DNA of 64,000 nt from Verrucomicrobiota bacterium. Lineage in GTDB: Bacteria; Verrucomicrobiota; Verrucomicrobiia; Limisphaerales; Fontisphaeraceae. The notes beneath the pieces were generated by a model. The model did not search any database. It saw only the letters and a program-made list of their open reading frames with translations, and was not told the DNA's origin. This document shows, one piece after another, positions 9,491 to 62,959 of this stretch (its first letter is position 1; the number at the start of each line of letters is the position of its first letter). The stretch is from assembly GCA_037139415.1 (NCBI GenBank), contig JBAXGN010000002.1, positions 1-64,000 on the forward strand. The letters run 5' to 3'. Made by a program: the position numbers and the translations under genes.

Positions 9491-9802
9491 ATGCTTTTCG
9501 CGCTCGCCGGTTTCATCACCGGCTGCGCGGGTGGCGGGCATGTGATCCGCGTCGTGGATGCGTCCTCCGGCAAGCCCGTTGCCGGAGCGACGGTGAGTTT
9601 GGTTTACCCTTCTGTTACCAGTACCCCGTACCTGACCGATGAACGCGGCCTGGCGCATATTGATGAGCGCGGGTTTGGCAAGCCGGGTGACGCCCTGACA
9701 GTTCAGGTATTCAAACCCGGCTATGCGTCAAACGCATTTGGCATGTGGGGTGTGGTGAAGCATCGTTTGGAAGTCCGATTGCAGCCCGCTGCCACGCCAT
9801 AA
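9491..9802 (+). CDS. Small lipoprotein with carboxypeptidase-regulatory-like fold
   Basis: A 103-aa product with a short hydrophobic N-terminus and a lipobox-like ITGC at residues 9-12, followed by a beta-rich domain starting VIRVVDASSGKPVAGATV, which is the typical opening of the CarboxypepD_reg-like/Ig-like fold. Likely an outer-membrane or periplasmic lipoprotein. The n-region lacks a basic residue if ATG 9491 is the start; no better start codon is visible upstream. It begins 35 bases after the sugar isomerase and may be translated from the same message. Function unknown. Confidence 0.6.
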   Translation: MLFALAGFITGCAGGGHVIRVVDASSGKPVAGATVSLVYPSVTSTPYLTDERGLAHIDERGFGKPGDALTVQVFKPGYASNAFGMWGVVKHRLEVRLQPAATP

Positions 9803-58609: not shown

Positions 58610-61501
58610 TCAGGGCATCGGTCTGGAATCCAGTTCCTCCGCCACGCGGCGAATACCTTTGGCGACATCGGTCCAAGCGGTGTCGCGGTCTTCCCATTTC
58701 TTCACTGGGCGGCCATCTTTGGGTAGTGCCTGCAATTTACTGAACGGCGCGCAGTGCCAGTCGCAATCGCGGAGGATGACCGGGATGACCACGGCTTCCT
58801 TTTTCTCGTGGCGCTCCATGGCCCGTTTCATTTCAAGGTCGTAGCAATAATCAGAGGCGATGAAATCGGCGCTGACCAGCAACAGGATGATGTCGGCCTG
58901 ATTTAGGTGATCATCTATCTGCTTGGCCCATTCTGTGCCAGCCGTAATGCGCCGGTCATGCCAATCGGAGATTTTGCCTTCCCGCTTGAGTAGTTTGAGG
59001 TGCGTTTCCAATTTGTCGCGCAAGGTTTCGTCTTTGTGCGAATAGCTGTAGAAGAGTTTGGGTGCTTTCATGGTTTCTTCCTTGGTTTTGGTTGTTTTGC
59101 GTACATTGGGCAAATCCACGCCGCTGAGCAATTCAACAACGCTCACAATGATCACATCATCGCCCACCACCTCCGGGAAATCTTTGATGCCTCTGCGTTC
59201 AAACGAAACCAGCTTATCATAATCAATCACCACTTCAGGATGTTTAGGCAGCGGCACCTTGGTCTTGACCTCCAAGCGCGGAATGCCAGCGTGGATGCGC
59301 TCAAAGTCCATTCGGATGACGGCCAGCAGTCGCCGCCGGCTCTCCGAGCCATCGTCGCGCACGCGCACGACCACCCGCCGGGTGCCAGCCTCGGCCTTGA
59401 CCATGGCGCGGCAGTTCTCCCAGCGCAAGACCACACCAGTACGCCAGCGGGGCTGCCCTTGGCTGTGGATATGGGAACGGACGATGAACTGCGGCAGCAG
59501 CCCTTCCGGCAGAATGTCATAATGATATTCAAAGTTCAGGCATTGTTCCGGCGCGAATTCTTTTTTCAAGTCCGGTTCCTCCTTACCCAGCAGTTCGGGC
59601 ACCAAGTAGCGGTGCTGATTATCGGGGAAGGCAAAGCAGAGGTGGAATTTGCGCATCAATTCCAACAGGAACTCATGTTTTTCCGGAGGGTATTCCTCGC
59701 TGAGGAGAAAGCGTGACAAGTCATGGAGGATCAGCTCGCCCTGCTGTTTGGCCAGCGCGCTGGCGTTGAGGAGACGGTAAATGCCTTCGGTCACCCACCG
59801 GGGTTTGAGCACGCTGGTATCGCGCAGGCGGGGATCATCCTTGTAATTGAGCGCGACGCCCAGACAATGCAGAAAACCAGCCAGCTCTTCCTGGGATTTG
59901 GAATCCCCTTCGCCCAATCGGGCGCAGGTGGCGCGGAACTGGTCAAAACTGAGGTAATTCACTTTCATTCCCGCCAGTTCATCCTTGATCGCAAACCAGG
60001 CCTTCGGAAAGCTGGCGCGCACATTGGTCATCTCGCCCAGCGTCTGCTTAATGCGCGATTCCAATTCCGCAAACCCGGTCGGCGTTCGGCAATCGGTCTT
60101 CACATAGCCGCGGATTTGGGGATACTTGGCCTGCAAACCACGGTAATTCAGGTCAAACGAATGCTGGTCAATCTTGTTCTGGACAATGATAACCGGGGAA
60201 TCGCCGCCAAAGCTCGCAATCAGCTTGAGCCAATATTCCGCATCCAAATCCTCCCCCCCTTCGCGTCCGTTGAGGACCAGTAGGTAGAGGCTGCGATCCG
60301 TGAGAAAGAATTGGTGGGTGGCGTGCATGATTTCCTGGCCACCAAAATCCCAGATATTCATCCGCACTTGGTCTTGGCCCACATTGACCTGCCAATCCGA
60401 AATCGCAATGCCTTCAGTCTTGTCGGTGGGTTCAAAAATGTTTTTGACGAGGCGATTCACCAGACACGTCTTGCCCACTTCGCCCCGGCCCACCAGAATC
60501 AGCTTGGCTTCGTTGAGCGGGCGTTTGCCGCCGCGCAAGCGGAAATAATAATCCAGGATGCTGGCGGGGTTGGCGGGTTTATTCTTTTCGTCGGCATCTC
60601 CCCAAGTTGGCCCAAGGATCTCCGGGGGGATACCGAGTTTGGGATTGTCATGCAGGTAAAGCCCTTTAAGTGACTTGAGGTTGCGCAGGCTCTCCGGCAA
60701 GATGGGTAGTTGATTGTTGCTAAGTTCGAGTGTCCGGAGCTGGGTTAGTTGGCTGAGGGCTTCCGGCAAGGCAGTCAGGCGGTTGTTGGAGAGGTCGAGC
60801 TCTTCAAGTTGGGTGAGTTGGCCGAGGGCTTCAGGTACGGCGGTTAGTTGGTTATTTTCGAGGTCGAGGTACGTGAGTTTGGTCAGGTGGCCAAGGGTTT
60901 CTGGTAAGGTGATTAAGCGGTTGTTGCGAAGGCTGAGGCGCTGGAGTTGGGCGAGTTGGCCGAGAGTTTCCGGTAGGGCGGTCAGTTGGTTACCGGAGAG
61001 GTTAAGGCGCTGGAGTTGGGCGAGTTGGCCGAGGAACTCCGGCAACATGGTTAGTTGGTTTTCATTGATATGGAGTTCCTCAAGTTGAGTGAGTTGGCCG
61101 AGGGTTTCTGGGAAGGTGGTCAGGTTGTTGCCATCTAGGTGTAGAATCCGTAGTTGGGTTAGATGGCTAAGGACTTCCGGCAGGTCCGTCAGGTTATTGC
61201 CGGCAAGGTCGAGACGCTGGAGCTGAGTGAACTGGCCGAGGGCTGCTGGTAAGACGGCTAGTTGGTTGCTGGAGAGGTTGAGGTTCGTGAGTTGGACGAG
61301 TTGGCCGAGGGGTTCCGGCAAGGCCGTCAGTTCGTTGCCGAAGAGGATGAGTTCCTGAACTTGGGAAAGTTGGGTAATCGAAGCGGGCAGTTCGGTCAGC
61401 CCTAGTAGCGAAAGGTTCAGTTCGCGCGCGCCGGATTTCCTGGCCAGCTCGATTTTTGCCTCGGCGATTTCCAAGGGGCTTATAAAGTTATCTTTTTCCA
61501 T
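58610..61501 (-). CDS. Roco protein with C-terminal TIR domain (LRR-Roc-COR-TIR)
   Basis: A 963-aa cytosolic protein. Order: about twelve 23-residue leucine-rich repeats (residues 20-300, LPETLGQLTQLQRL type), a Roc GTPase with P-loop GRGEVGKTC (about 336-344), switch II DFGGQE (about 385) and NKID (about 441), a COR dimerisation region (about 480-790), and a TIR domain (about 810-960) starting APKLFYSYSHKDE with a candidate catalytic Glu in CYDLEMKRAMERH (about 889). TIR domains of this type can hydrolyse NAD or sense it. The likely role is ligand-triggered signalling or antiphage defence, inferred. An internal ATG with strong SD exists before the TIR part. Confidence 0.9.
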   Translation of the reverse strand: MEKDNFISPLEIAEAKIELARKSGARELNLSLLGLTELPASITQLSQVQELILFGNELTALPEPLGQLVQLTNLNLSSNQLAVLPAALGQFTQLQRLDLAGNNLTDLPEVLSHLTQLRILHLDGNNLTTFPETLGQLTQLEELHINENQLTMLPEFLGQLAQLQRLNLSGNQLTALPETLGQLAQLQRLSLRNNRLITLPETLGHLTKLTYLDLENNQLTAVPEALGQLTQLEELDLSNNRLTALPEALSQLTQLRTLELSNNQLPILPESLRNLKSLKGLYLHDNPKLGIPPEILGPTWGDADEKNKPANPASILDYYFRLRGGKRPLNEAKLILVGRGEVGKTCLVNRLVKNIFEPTDKTEGIAISDWQVNVGQDQVRMNIWDFGGQEIMHATHQFFLTDRSLYLLVLNGREGGEDLDAEYWLKLIASFGGDSPVIIVQNKIDQHSFDLNYRGLQAKYPQIRGYVKTDCRTPTGFAELESRIKQTLGEMTNVRASFPKAWFAIKDELAGMKVNYLSFDQFRATCARLGEGDSKSQEELAGFLHCLGVALNYKDDPRLRDTSVLKPRWVTEGIYRLLNASALAKQQGELILHDLSRFLLSEEYPPEKHEFLLELMRKFHLCFAFPDNQHRYLVPELLGKEEPDLKKEFAPEQCLNFEYHYDILPEGLLPQFIVRSHIHSQGQPRWRTGVVLRWENCRAMVKAEAGTRRVVVRVRDDGSESRRRLLAVIRMDFERIHAGIPRLEVKTKVPLPKHPEVVIDYDKLVSFERRGIKDFPEVVGDDVIIVSVVELLSGVDLPNVRKTTKTKEETMKAPKLFYSYSHKDETLRDKLETHLKLLKREGKISDWHDRRITAGTEWAKQIDDHLNQADIILLLVSADFIASDYCYDLEMKRAMERHEKKEAVVIPVILRDCDWHCAPFSKLQALPKDGRPVKKWEDRDTAWTDVAKGIRRVAEELDSRPMP

Positions 61502-61860
61502 AGCTTCTTTCTCCTGCTTTCGGTCAGCGGTGGTTCGGTGGGGAATTTAGGGTTTTTGCCCGTGCCAGCCAACTGAAAAGTGGTTCCCAACGACAAAAAA
61601 CTCGTTTGGAAGGGGGAAAAGGTCGTTAATAAAGAGTTTTTTATGGATCGCGACCTCCTTTTTGGCCAATGCGTTTGCCGGACGCTTTGGCGGGGTGGTC
61701 TTTTTCCGTGGACGACCGGGGAAGCGTTGGTTGAGTTTGTTGTACCGGCTATAGCCGTTCCATGACCACGAAATGCCCATTCCCGAAATTTTGGTCGGCA
61801 AAAGAAGCGTTTTTTGATGATCCGCGTGGGCTGAGTTATCTCCAAAATCGGTAAATACGC

Positions 61861-62120
61861 ATGTTATTTTTTGGCGAGCATGTAAAATCGTGATAAATGT
61901 TCATGTACAAAATCAAACATAGGCAAAAATCATGATTTTTGGTCATGTACGATTTTAGACTATAACGAATACCTTCATATACGATTATGTATAATAATGT
62001 ACATCACAGAAAATCAATATTTTCGTAAGTGTACAATTTTATACATGGCTAAAAACCGTGATGTTTAATGATGTACAATATTGGCTTATGGCAAATACGA
62101 CGGTAAACATGGATATATAA
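61861..62120. promoter_or_regulatory. AT-rich region with degenerate 42-bp repeats and phased TGTACA sites
   Basis: TGTACA or a one-base variant occurs at 61904, 61946 (TGTACG), 61998, 62030 and 62072. The spacings 42, 52, 32 and 42 are close to whole numbers of helical turns (4, 5, 3, 4 at 10.5 bp). Around the sites run degenerate units of the type GGCAAAAATCATGAT...ATGTAC (compare 61922-61951 and 62048-62077). The region is far more AT-rich than its surroundings. It lies in the 774-bp gap 61502-62275 between the divergent Roco-TIR gene and an unknown gene; no coding region is supported in that gap. Confidence 0.65.
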
Positions 62121-62275
62121 AATTGGACTGCCACGTTTCCGCATTTGACAGGTCGGTTTGGGTTTGGCAGATTGGCTTCCAAGACTTAATTAACGGCAGT
62201 AACTTTTCCGGTCATGGCTGCGTGACAGTAGTTTGCCCGGTTGGCGGTTGGTGATGGGCGGCCAATTGACCGGAT

Positions 62276-62959
62276 ATGACATGGATGTTTATGAAAGACT
62301 TGTCCCGTTTGTTTGAAGTGCCATTCGACGATCCGCACCTCGGTTTGGGCCATTTGTTGGCCTTTGCCACGGATCATTTGCAGCGGATGATTGCCAATAA
62401 CCCGGCCTCAGCGCTGGATGCGCGCATCGCAGCCACCCAAGACGCGTTGGCGCAAGTGAACACGTTCTTCAGCGAAGACAACACCAGCCTTGGCCTCCGC
62501 AAGGGGCAAAAAATGGCCAAGCGGAAGTTCCGCGCCGGTCTGCGGGCCAAAATCGCCAAACTTGCCGGGGCCGTGATGGCTCGGTACGGCCTGCGCACCG
62601 CGCTTTACCTGGAATGCTTTCCGCATGGCCGGCGAAACTTCAACAGGTGTACGGATGACCAATTGGGAACCCATCTGCTGGTGCTTCGGGACCGCATCGC
62701 GGCGCACGGAACGGACCTCGGCGCGACGGCGGTGGCGGAGTCGGCGGCGCTGGTCGAGGGCTGGGCGTCCATCCATGCCGCCAGCGAAAGCGCCACGGGT
62801 GCGAAGACCGCGACGCAGGAGGCGAAAAAACTGGCCCGCGAACATCTCCAACTGATGCTTTACCTGAACCTGGTGAAGCTGATGGAGCTGTTCCCCCGCC
62901 AACCGGAGCGCTGCGGGCTCTACTTGCAACAAAGCTTGCTGCATCCGCGCCGATTATAG
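62276..62959 (+). CDS. Unknown helical protein
   Basis: A 227-aa soluble, mostly helical protein with no family that I recognise. It has an amphipathic N-terminal helix (DLSRLFEVPFDDPHLGLGHLL), a basic middle (KGQKMAKRKFRAGLRAK), and an Ala/Glu-rich C-terminal half. Starts at ATG 62276, 62285 and 62291 are all in frame. Its TAG stop directly abuts the stop of the convergent gene at 62960 with no base in between. Its 5' end faces the phased TGTACA region, so it may be controlled by it. Confidence 0.55.
   Translation: MTWMFMKDLSRLFEVPFDDPHLGLGHLLAFATDHLQRMIANNPASALDARIAATQDALAQVNTFFSEDNTSLGLRKGQKMAKRKFRAGLRAKIAKLAGAVMARYGLRTALYLECFPHGRRNFNRCTDDQLGTHLLVLRDRIAAHGTDLGATAVAESAALVEGWASIHAASESATGAKTATQEAKKLAREHLQLMLYLNLVKLMELFPRQPERCGLYLQQSLLHPRRL

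Follow-up and report, generated by a model that had tools for sequence, protein, structure and literature searches.

A phased 42-bp tandem array upstream of a small gene, one of a set of Verrucomicrobia arrays that keep their pitch while their sequence changes

Arrays of repressor or activator sites at promoters consist of phased, dyad-symmetric sites upstream of a promoter; the sequence of the site is conserved, and the spacing may drift. The iterons of theta plasmids such as RK2, P1, and R6K are direct repeats, usually of 17–22 bp, that lie on one face of the helix and are bound cooperatively. Moving an iteron pair apart by half a turn abolishes that cooperativity (PMC4980987). Type III toxin–antitoxin systems (ToxIN, CptIN, and TenpIN) possess a tandem array upstream of a small gene, and the repeat sequence differs between systems (PMC5086642).

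Here, we describe an array that occupies the AT-rich gap at 61861–62120 of the window, the whole stretch of 64,000 nucleotides that was analysed. The array belongs to a set of tandem arrays that have a 41–42 bp pitch, often 2 × 20.5–21 bp, adjoin small genes, and nearly always lie upstream of them. Across this set, the pitch and the linkage between array and gene are kept, and the unit sequence changes widely and concertedly. The features of the locus are the following.

61794..61861, no strand assigned: left flank of a duplicated segment; 61794–61854 shares 97% identity with the copy on contig C157, whose match begins here.
61862..62113, no strand assigned: array of six contiguous 42-bp units in strict register, every unit beginning TGT, defined by DNA alignment, autocorrelation, and two paralogous arrays; the units start at 61862 (TGTTAT), 61904 (TGTACA), 61946 (TGTACG), 61988 (TGTATA), 62030 (TGTACA), and 62072 (TGTACA).
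61904..61909, no strand assigned: TGTACA, start of unit 2.
61946..61951, no strand assigned: TGTACG, start of unit 3.
61998..62003, no strand assigned: TGTACA within unit 4, out of register by 10 bp.
62030..62035, no strand assigned: TGTACA, start of unit 5.
62072..62077, no strand assigned: TGTACA, start of unit 6.
62145..62150, plus strand: TTGACA, a possible −35 hexamer immediately 3' of the array that the paralog on contig C33 retains.
62276..62959, plus strand: gene owning the array, encoding a 227-aa protein with a conserved core from the Met at 62291 and an all-helical model.

A first-pass annotation of this DNA had described five helically phased sites with centre spacings of 42, 52, 32, and 42 bases within degenerate 42-bp units. 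The five sites are present, four as exact TGTACA (61904, 61998, 62030, and 62072) and one as TGTACG (61946). The period is confirmed and the units are indeed degenerate, but the lattice itself consists of six strict units, and the spacings of 52 and 32 arise because the TGTACA at 61998 sits outside their register. Specifically, autocorrelation of the array peaks at shifts of 42, 84, and 126 (z 7.6, 6.7, and 7.9), values matched by 0 of 500 shuffles. A 42-base pitch corresponds to four DNA turns per unit, in support of the proposed helical phasing. At a score of 60, TRF makes no call on the window array, as its units are degenerate. TGTACA is also in excess: 4 copies are found in the 281 bp at 61855–62135 versus 0.28 expected, and none of 2000 dinucleotide shuffles yields at least 4. 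The enrichment is local, since the whole window contains 9 copies versus 6.4 expected.

Searched against its own genome, the array region has, besides itself, only two other matches at E < 1e-3, the copies on contigs C157 and C33. The window array and the C157 copy are 71.7% identical over 272 bp with zero gaps, that is, they differ by 28% substitutions and no indels, versus flanks that are 96.7% and 93.8% identical. The C157 and C33 arrays share 94.9% identity. The 42-bp period persists in both, and TGTACA is absent from both. When changes between the window and C157 arrays fall at the same unit phase, the new base is shared in 41 of 76 pairs versus 18 expected, an excess that stems in part from both arrays being periodic. 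After the C33 array comes an intact gene, and its product shares 97% identity with the window protein; on C157, the array is accompanied by only the first 16–20 codons of the gene. The first-pass annotation had envisioned a dimeric regulator binding TGTACA cooperatively. Dyad symmetry is supported, and cooperative binding by an oligomeric protein survives as the best inference. TGTACA as the recognized, conserved operator does not, given that it is missing from the paralogous arrays and that most of the remaining arrays have different sequences.

The array belongs to the 227-aa gene at 62276 and not to the divergent Roco-TIR gene at 61501. The product of the gene at 62276 has no family match in Pfam or PADLOC, none below E 0.02 in NCBIfam, and none below E 0.2 in PHROGs. 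By sequence, its best match in the PDB has an E of 0.02, and the matches are weak, partial ones to designed and other helical proteins. An AlphaFold2 model built from an alignment of 37 relatives (pLDDT 93, pTM 0.75) is all-helical, with two helices of ~57 residues and several short ones; a Foldseek search of the model against the PDB and viral structure libraries returned nothing at E ≤ 0.001. We also considered, and rejected, a HEPN ribonuclease (R-X4-6-H). Many members possess R-X6-H near residue 121, the R or the H is replaced in others, and the window protein has T in place of the R. There is weak evidence for a promoter at the TTGACA at 62145: in about 8 of 43 relatives, TTGAC[A/T] or TTGTCA lies 128–146 bp ahead of the conserved Met, and a promoter scan of the window locus found the hexamer without a partner −10. 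We note that the 3' end of the gene (62940–62959) is shorter than that of the C33 paralog, with PRRL in place of a proline-rich tail, and that seven relatives (L057, L059, L071, L073, L055, L078, and L079) carry long serine-rich, low-complexity C-terminal tails.

Relatives of the window gene, identified by profile search, occur in 9 of 384 genomes of the class and in 25 of 240 genomes of one order; named carriers are a Spartobacteria MAG and a groundwater Verrucomicrobia MAG. When periods of 15–74 bp are scanned, a period of 41 or 42 bp is the strongest one upstream of 39 of 42 relatives, a phylogenetically clustered set from fragmentary assemblies, versus 72 of 1208 background tiles (6%) drawn from two genomes and the window. 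TRF calls a 40–43 bp array upstream of the gene at 32 of 43 loci and downstream at none of the 43. In 400 kb of genome G739, the sole TRF array with a period of 38–45 bp is the one at the relative. Copy number varies between loci, as does the gap between array and gene, and the unit consensus sequences differ widely. A single motif common to all arrays was rejected, as sharing is only partial and occurs among relatives of the window gene. Specifically, CTTCC/GGAAG is present in 20 of the 35 arrays of those relatives versus 4.5 expected, a sharing due partly to common descent. The composition of the set also bears on the suggestion that the array silences AT-rich foreign DNA: most comparable arrays are GC-rich or of mixed composition, and we abandon that suggestion.

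When 400 kb from the window's genome and 142 kb from G764 were scanned, further arrays were found beside other small genes. The second family, the L122 type, was first met via an array and has relatives in 21 of 142 genomes and a weak fn3-like tail. With the relatives picked irrespective of arrays, 20 of 30 L122-type loci have a 41–43 bp array upstream. Other domains are found in genes whose similarity to the L122 type is confined to about the first 55 residues. Of a third family, the window's genome has three paralogs; two of them have the array 3' of the gene, and a G018 relative has it upstream. The 21/42-bp arrays of L180 and L183, both of this family, are located 82–381 and 122–358 bp beyond the 3' end of the gene, and these two arrays fit a simple operator poorly. 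Elsewhere, a different 42-bp repeat, present in two copies at 9624–9705 of L105 (G000 C3), overlaps a 264-aa open frame and so may be coding, and L126 280–700 (G764 C6) consists of a 42-bp array and then a tagged frame of just 48 aa.

The tag in question is an N-terminal peptide of many array-linked proteins with a loose W/F-D/N-x-G pattern, which was chosen after the sequences had been seen and has 0 matches in 5019 control stretches. The strict form, FDSGVR[FWY]D, is found only at window-family genes; the window protein and its C33 paralog are without the N-terminal W/F-D-x-G peptide. Tagged genes of further classes, DUF4469 excepted, have 21/42/63-bp arrays in 13 of 13 cases, versus an upstream array in 0 of 5 members of the tagged DUF4469 class (L193, L194, L196, L201, and L170). 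In L193, PF14734 scores above its cut-off. The part ahead of DUF4469 may be an HU-like domain, although Pfam gave no HU match.

The units are symmetric. Across 59 arrays, 25% of bases lie in dyads, as detected under one scoring scheme, versus 10.6% when unit columns are permuted. The symmetry carries no RNA strand signature, that is, no one-strand G-U pairing, because G-T and A-C mismatches in dyad arms stand at 47:37 versus a composition ratio of 1.09. A protein-coding repeat was set aside, because 41 bp, the period of 17 of the 59 arrays, is not divisible by three. The open frames listed for the window likewise do not run through its array. A-tract curvature as a common rule was also rejected, since several arrays, judged by eye, have no A-tracts.

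We propose that the array is a lattice of double-stranded DNA, in which dyad-symmetric sites would be displayed on one helix face at four turns per unit, with a two- or four-turn pitch across the set. The lattice would be placed near the promoter of the linked gene, and a putative oligomeric DNA-binding protein would fill its sites cooperatively. The notion is that such a binder, perhaps specific to each locus and perhaps reading symmetry and spacing more than sequence, would set the expression, or the chromosomal organization, of the array–gene module. In the window, the array would act on the gene at 62276 and not mainly on Roco-TIR. We give this reading, in which both the binding protein and the function are inferred, roughly an even chance. 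Against it, the linked proteins are unlike DNA-binding proteins: most of their cores are net acidic, and the window model has no significant match in the PDB or viral structure libraries. The window protein, with a net charge of +9, is an uncertain candidate for the array binder. The tagged DUF4469 protein was a candidate trans factor and was rejected as a general array binder; of 22 genomes searched, only 5 contain a protein that scores above the family cut-off, and the search did not detect one in the window's genome, G000. A protein of fixed specificity does not explain the wide differences in unit sequence, though relatives of the window gene share some words.

An unlikely alternative, one of two main ones, is that the array and the start of the gene form a mobile or recombinational header, which would move or exchange domains as a unit and whose repeats would be binding or exchange sites for a recombinase acting in trans. 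The neighbourhoods are suggestive in this respect, as loci almost never have neighbours in common: only two pairs among the 43 loci have any flanking ORF in common. Partial copies exist as well, namely the gene start with its array on C157 and the 48-aa tagged frame of G764, and similar N-terminal peptides precede different domains. However, we identified neither terminal repeats nor target duplications, the left flank is present at only two places in the genome (the window and C157), and searches of viral, phage, and plasmid collections revealed no relatives (the tblastn search against plasmids used two proteins). Moreover, patchy inheritance with duplication and loss yields the same pattern.

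Doubtful, too, is a role at the RNA level, in which the array is transcribed as a string of hairpins, either a small RNA or a 5' leader, and the transcript, in the manner of a type III antitoxin RNA, controls the linked protein or binds it. A tandem array upstream of a small gene, with unit length kept as the sequence diverges, would suit such a role, and antitoxins of the ToxIN family are 34–36-nt repeats upstream of the toxin gene (PMC5086642). Consensus units also fold somewhat better than shuffles. They do so to a similar degree in both orientations, however (mean z −1.5 sense and −1.3 antisense), and the gene strand folds more stably in 17 of 37 arrays, which, with the mismatch counts above, argues that neither strand is preferred. 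Several unrelated protein families have such arrays, the distance between array and gene varies between about 30 and about 500 bp, two arrays are located 3' of their genes, and Rfam gave no match near a gathering score.

Far less probable is a functionless satellite, produced by slippage or unequal exchange as a tandem duplication in a gene-poor gap. Tandem arrays do diverge fast and homogenize themselves, and copy number here is variable, but neutral drift sits poorly with a pitch fixed at 41–42 (or 21) bp across very different sequences beside the same kinds of gene, with enriched dyad symmetry, or with paralogs that differ by more than a quarter of their bases and not in length. Regulation of the divergent Roco-TIR gene is very improbable: the array begins 361 bp upstream of its start, yet the C157 and C33 copies have the array and the gene, or the gene start, with no Roco gene beside them in the sequence read, and arrays elsewhere have unrelated neighbours.

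The Roco-TIR gene itself (58610–61501, minus strand) encodes a leucine-rich-repeat Roc-COR protein with a C-terminal TIR (PADLOC ThsB, E 1.4e-69) and is a defence candidate. Its LRR part corresponds to a 69-bp tandem repeat at 60737–61034. A weak match to plasmid DNA (32 bp, 61671–61702 of the window) falls within a conjugal transfer gene and not within the array, and we attribute it to chance.

Returning to the duplex-DNA lattice, we consider it possible, at slightly less than an even chance, that these loci represent a new kind of array–gene module in Verrucomicrobia, in which a two- or four-turn pitch is conserved, sequence is free, and the products are often W/F-D-x-G-tagged. It is the association that would be new; the mechanism may prove ordinary. 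We found no description of the association in the open-access literature searched. If the proposal is true, spacing and symmetry are recognized more than sequence, or every locus has a recognition factor of its own. Recognition can be tested on the paralogous arrays of the window's genome, and the association provides a first handle on a group of small Verrucomicrobia proteins with no assigned function.

Each of the readings as a type III toxin–antitoxin, plasmid iteron, REP, CRISPR, or HEPN system breaks down at a defining feature that we tested. In a CRISPR array, unique spacers separate the repeats; here, the whole unit repeats and there is no unique spacer. Like REP and BIME elements, the arrays comprise short intergenic palindromes, sometimes in tandem. 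Unlike them, they are local, with locus-specific sequence and a fixed pitch rather than a single sequence dispersed through the genome, and the window array region, with its two other genomic matches, was rejected as such an element. The likeness to type III toxin–antitoxin systems resides in a tandem array upstream of a small gene, with a sequence that varies between loci. The differences are that the window model is all-helical with no match to a known toxin family (a ToxN/CptN/TenpN-type endoribonuclease; Pfam, NCBIfam, PADLOC, and PDB), that there is no RNA strand signature, that several unrelated proteins are involved, and that arrays can be distant or 3'. In addition, a scan of the window locus (62114–62276) found no Rho-independent terminator between array and gene; the same scan, in the window only, gave one weak terminator-like stem inside the array. 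Like iterons, the arrays are set at integral helical turns (42 bp in the window and 41–42 bp in relatives). Unlike iterons, they have a 41–42 bp pitch and widely differing sequence, several unrelated gene families adjoin them, and no Rep or winged-helix protein was found. The idea, raised in the first-pass annotation, that the sites are iterons of a plasmid origin fell for this reason: no match to Rep or winged-helix proteins was obtained for the linked protein, and tblastn searches with two proteins revealed no relatives in the plasmid collection. Finally, the arrays resemble those of repressor and activator sites in having phased, dyad-symmetric sites upstream. In usual regulatory DNA, however, the sequence of the site is kept and the spacing drifts; here, in dozens of loci, the reverse is the case, with spacing conserved and sequence drifting, a pattern suggesting either that pitch and symmetry are recognized or that the arrays have specific, rapidly co-evolving partners.
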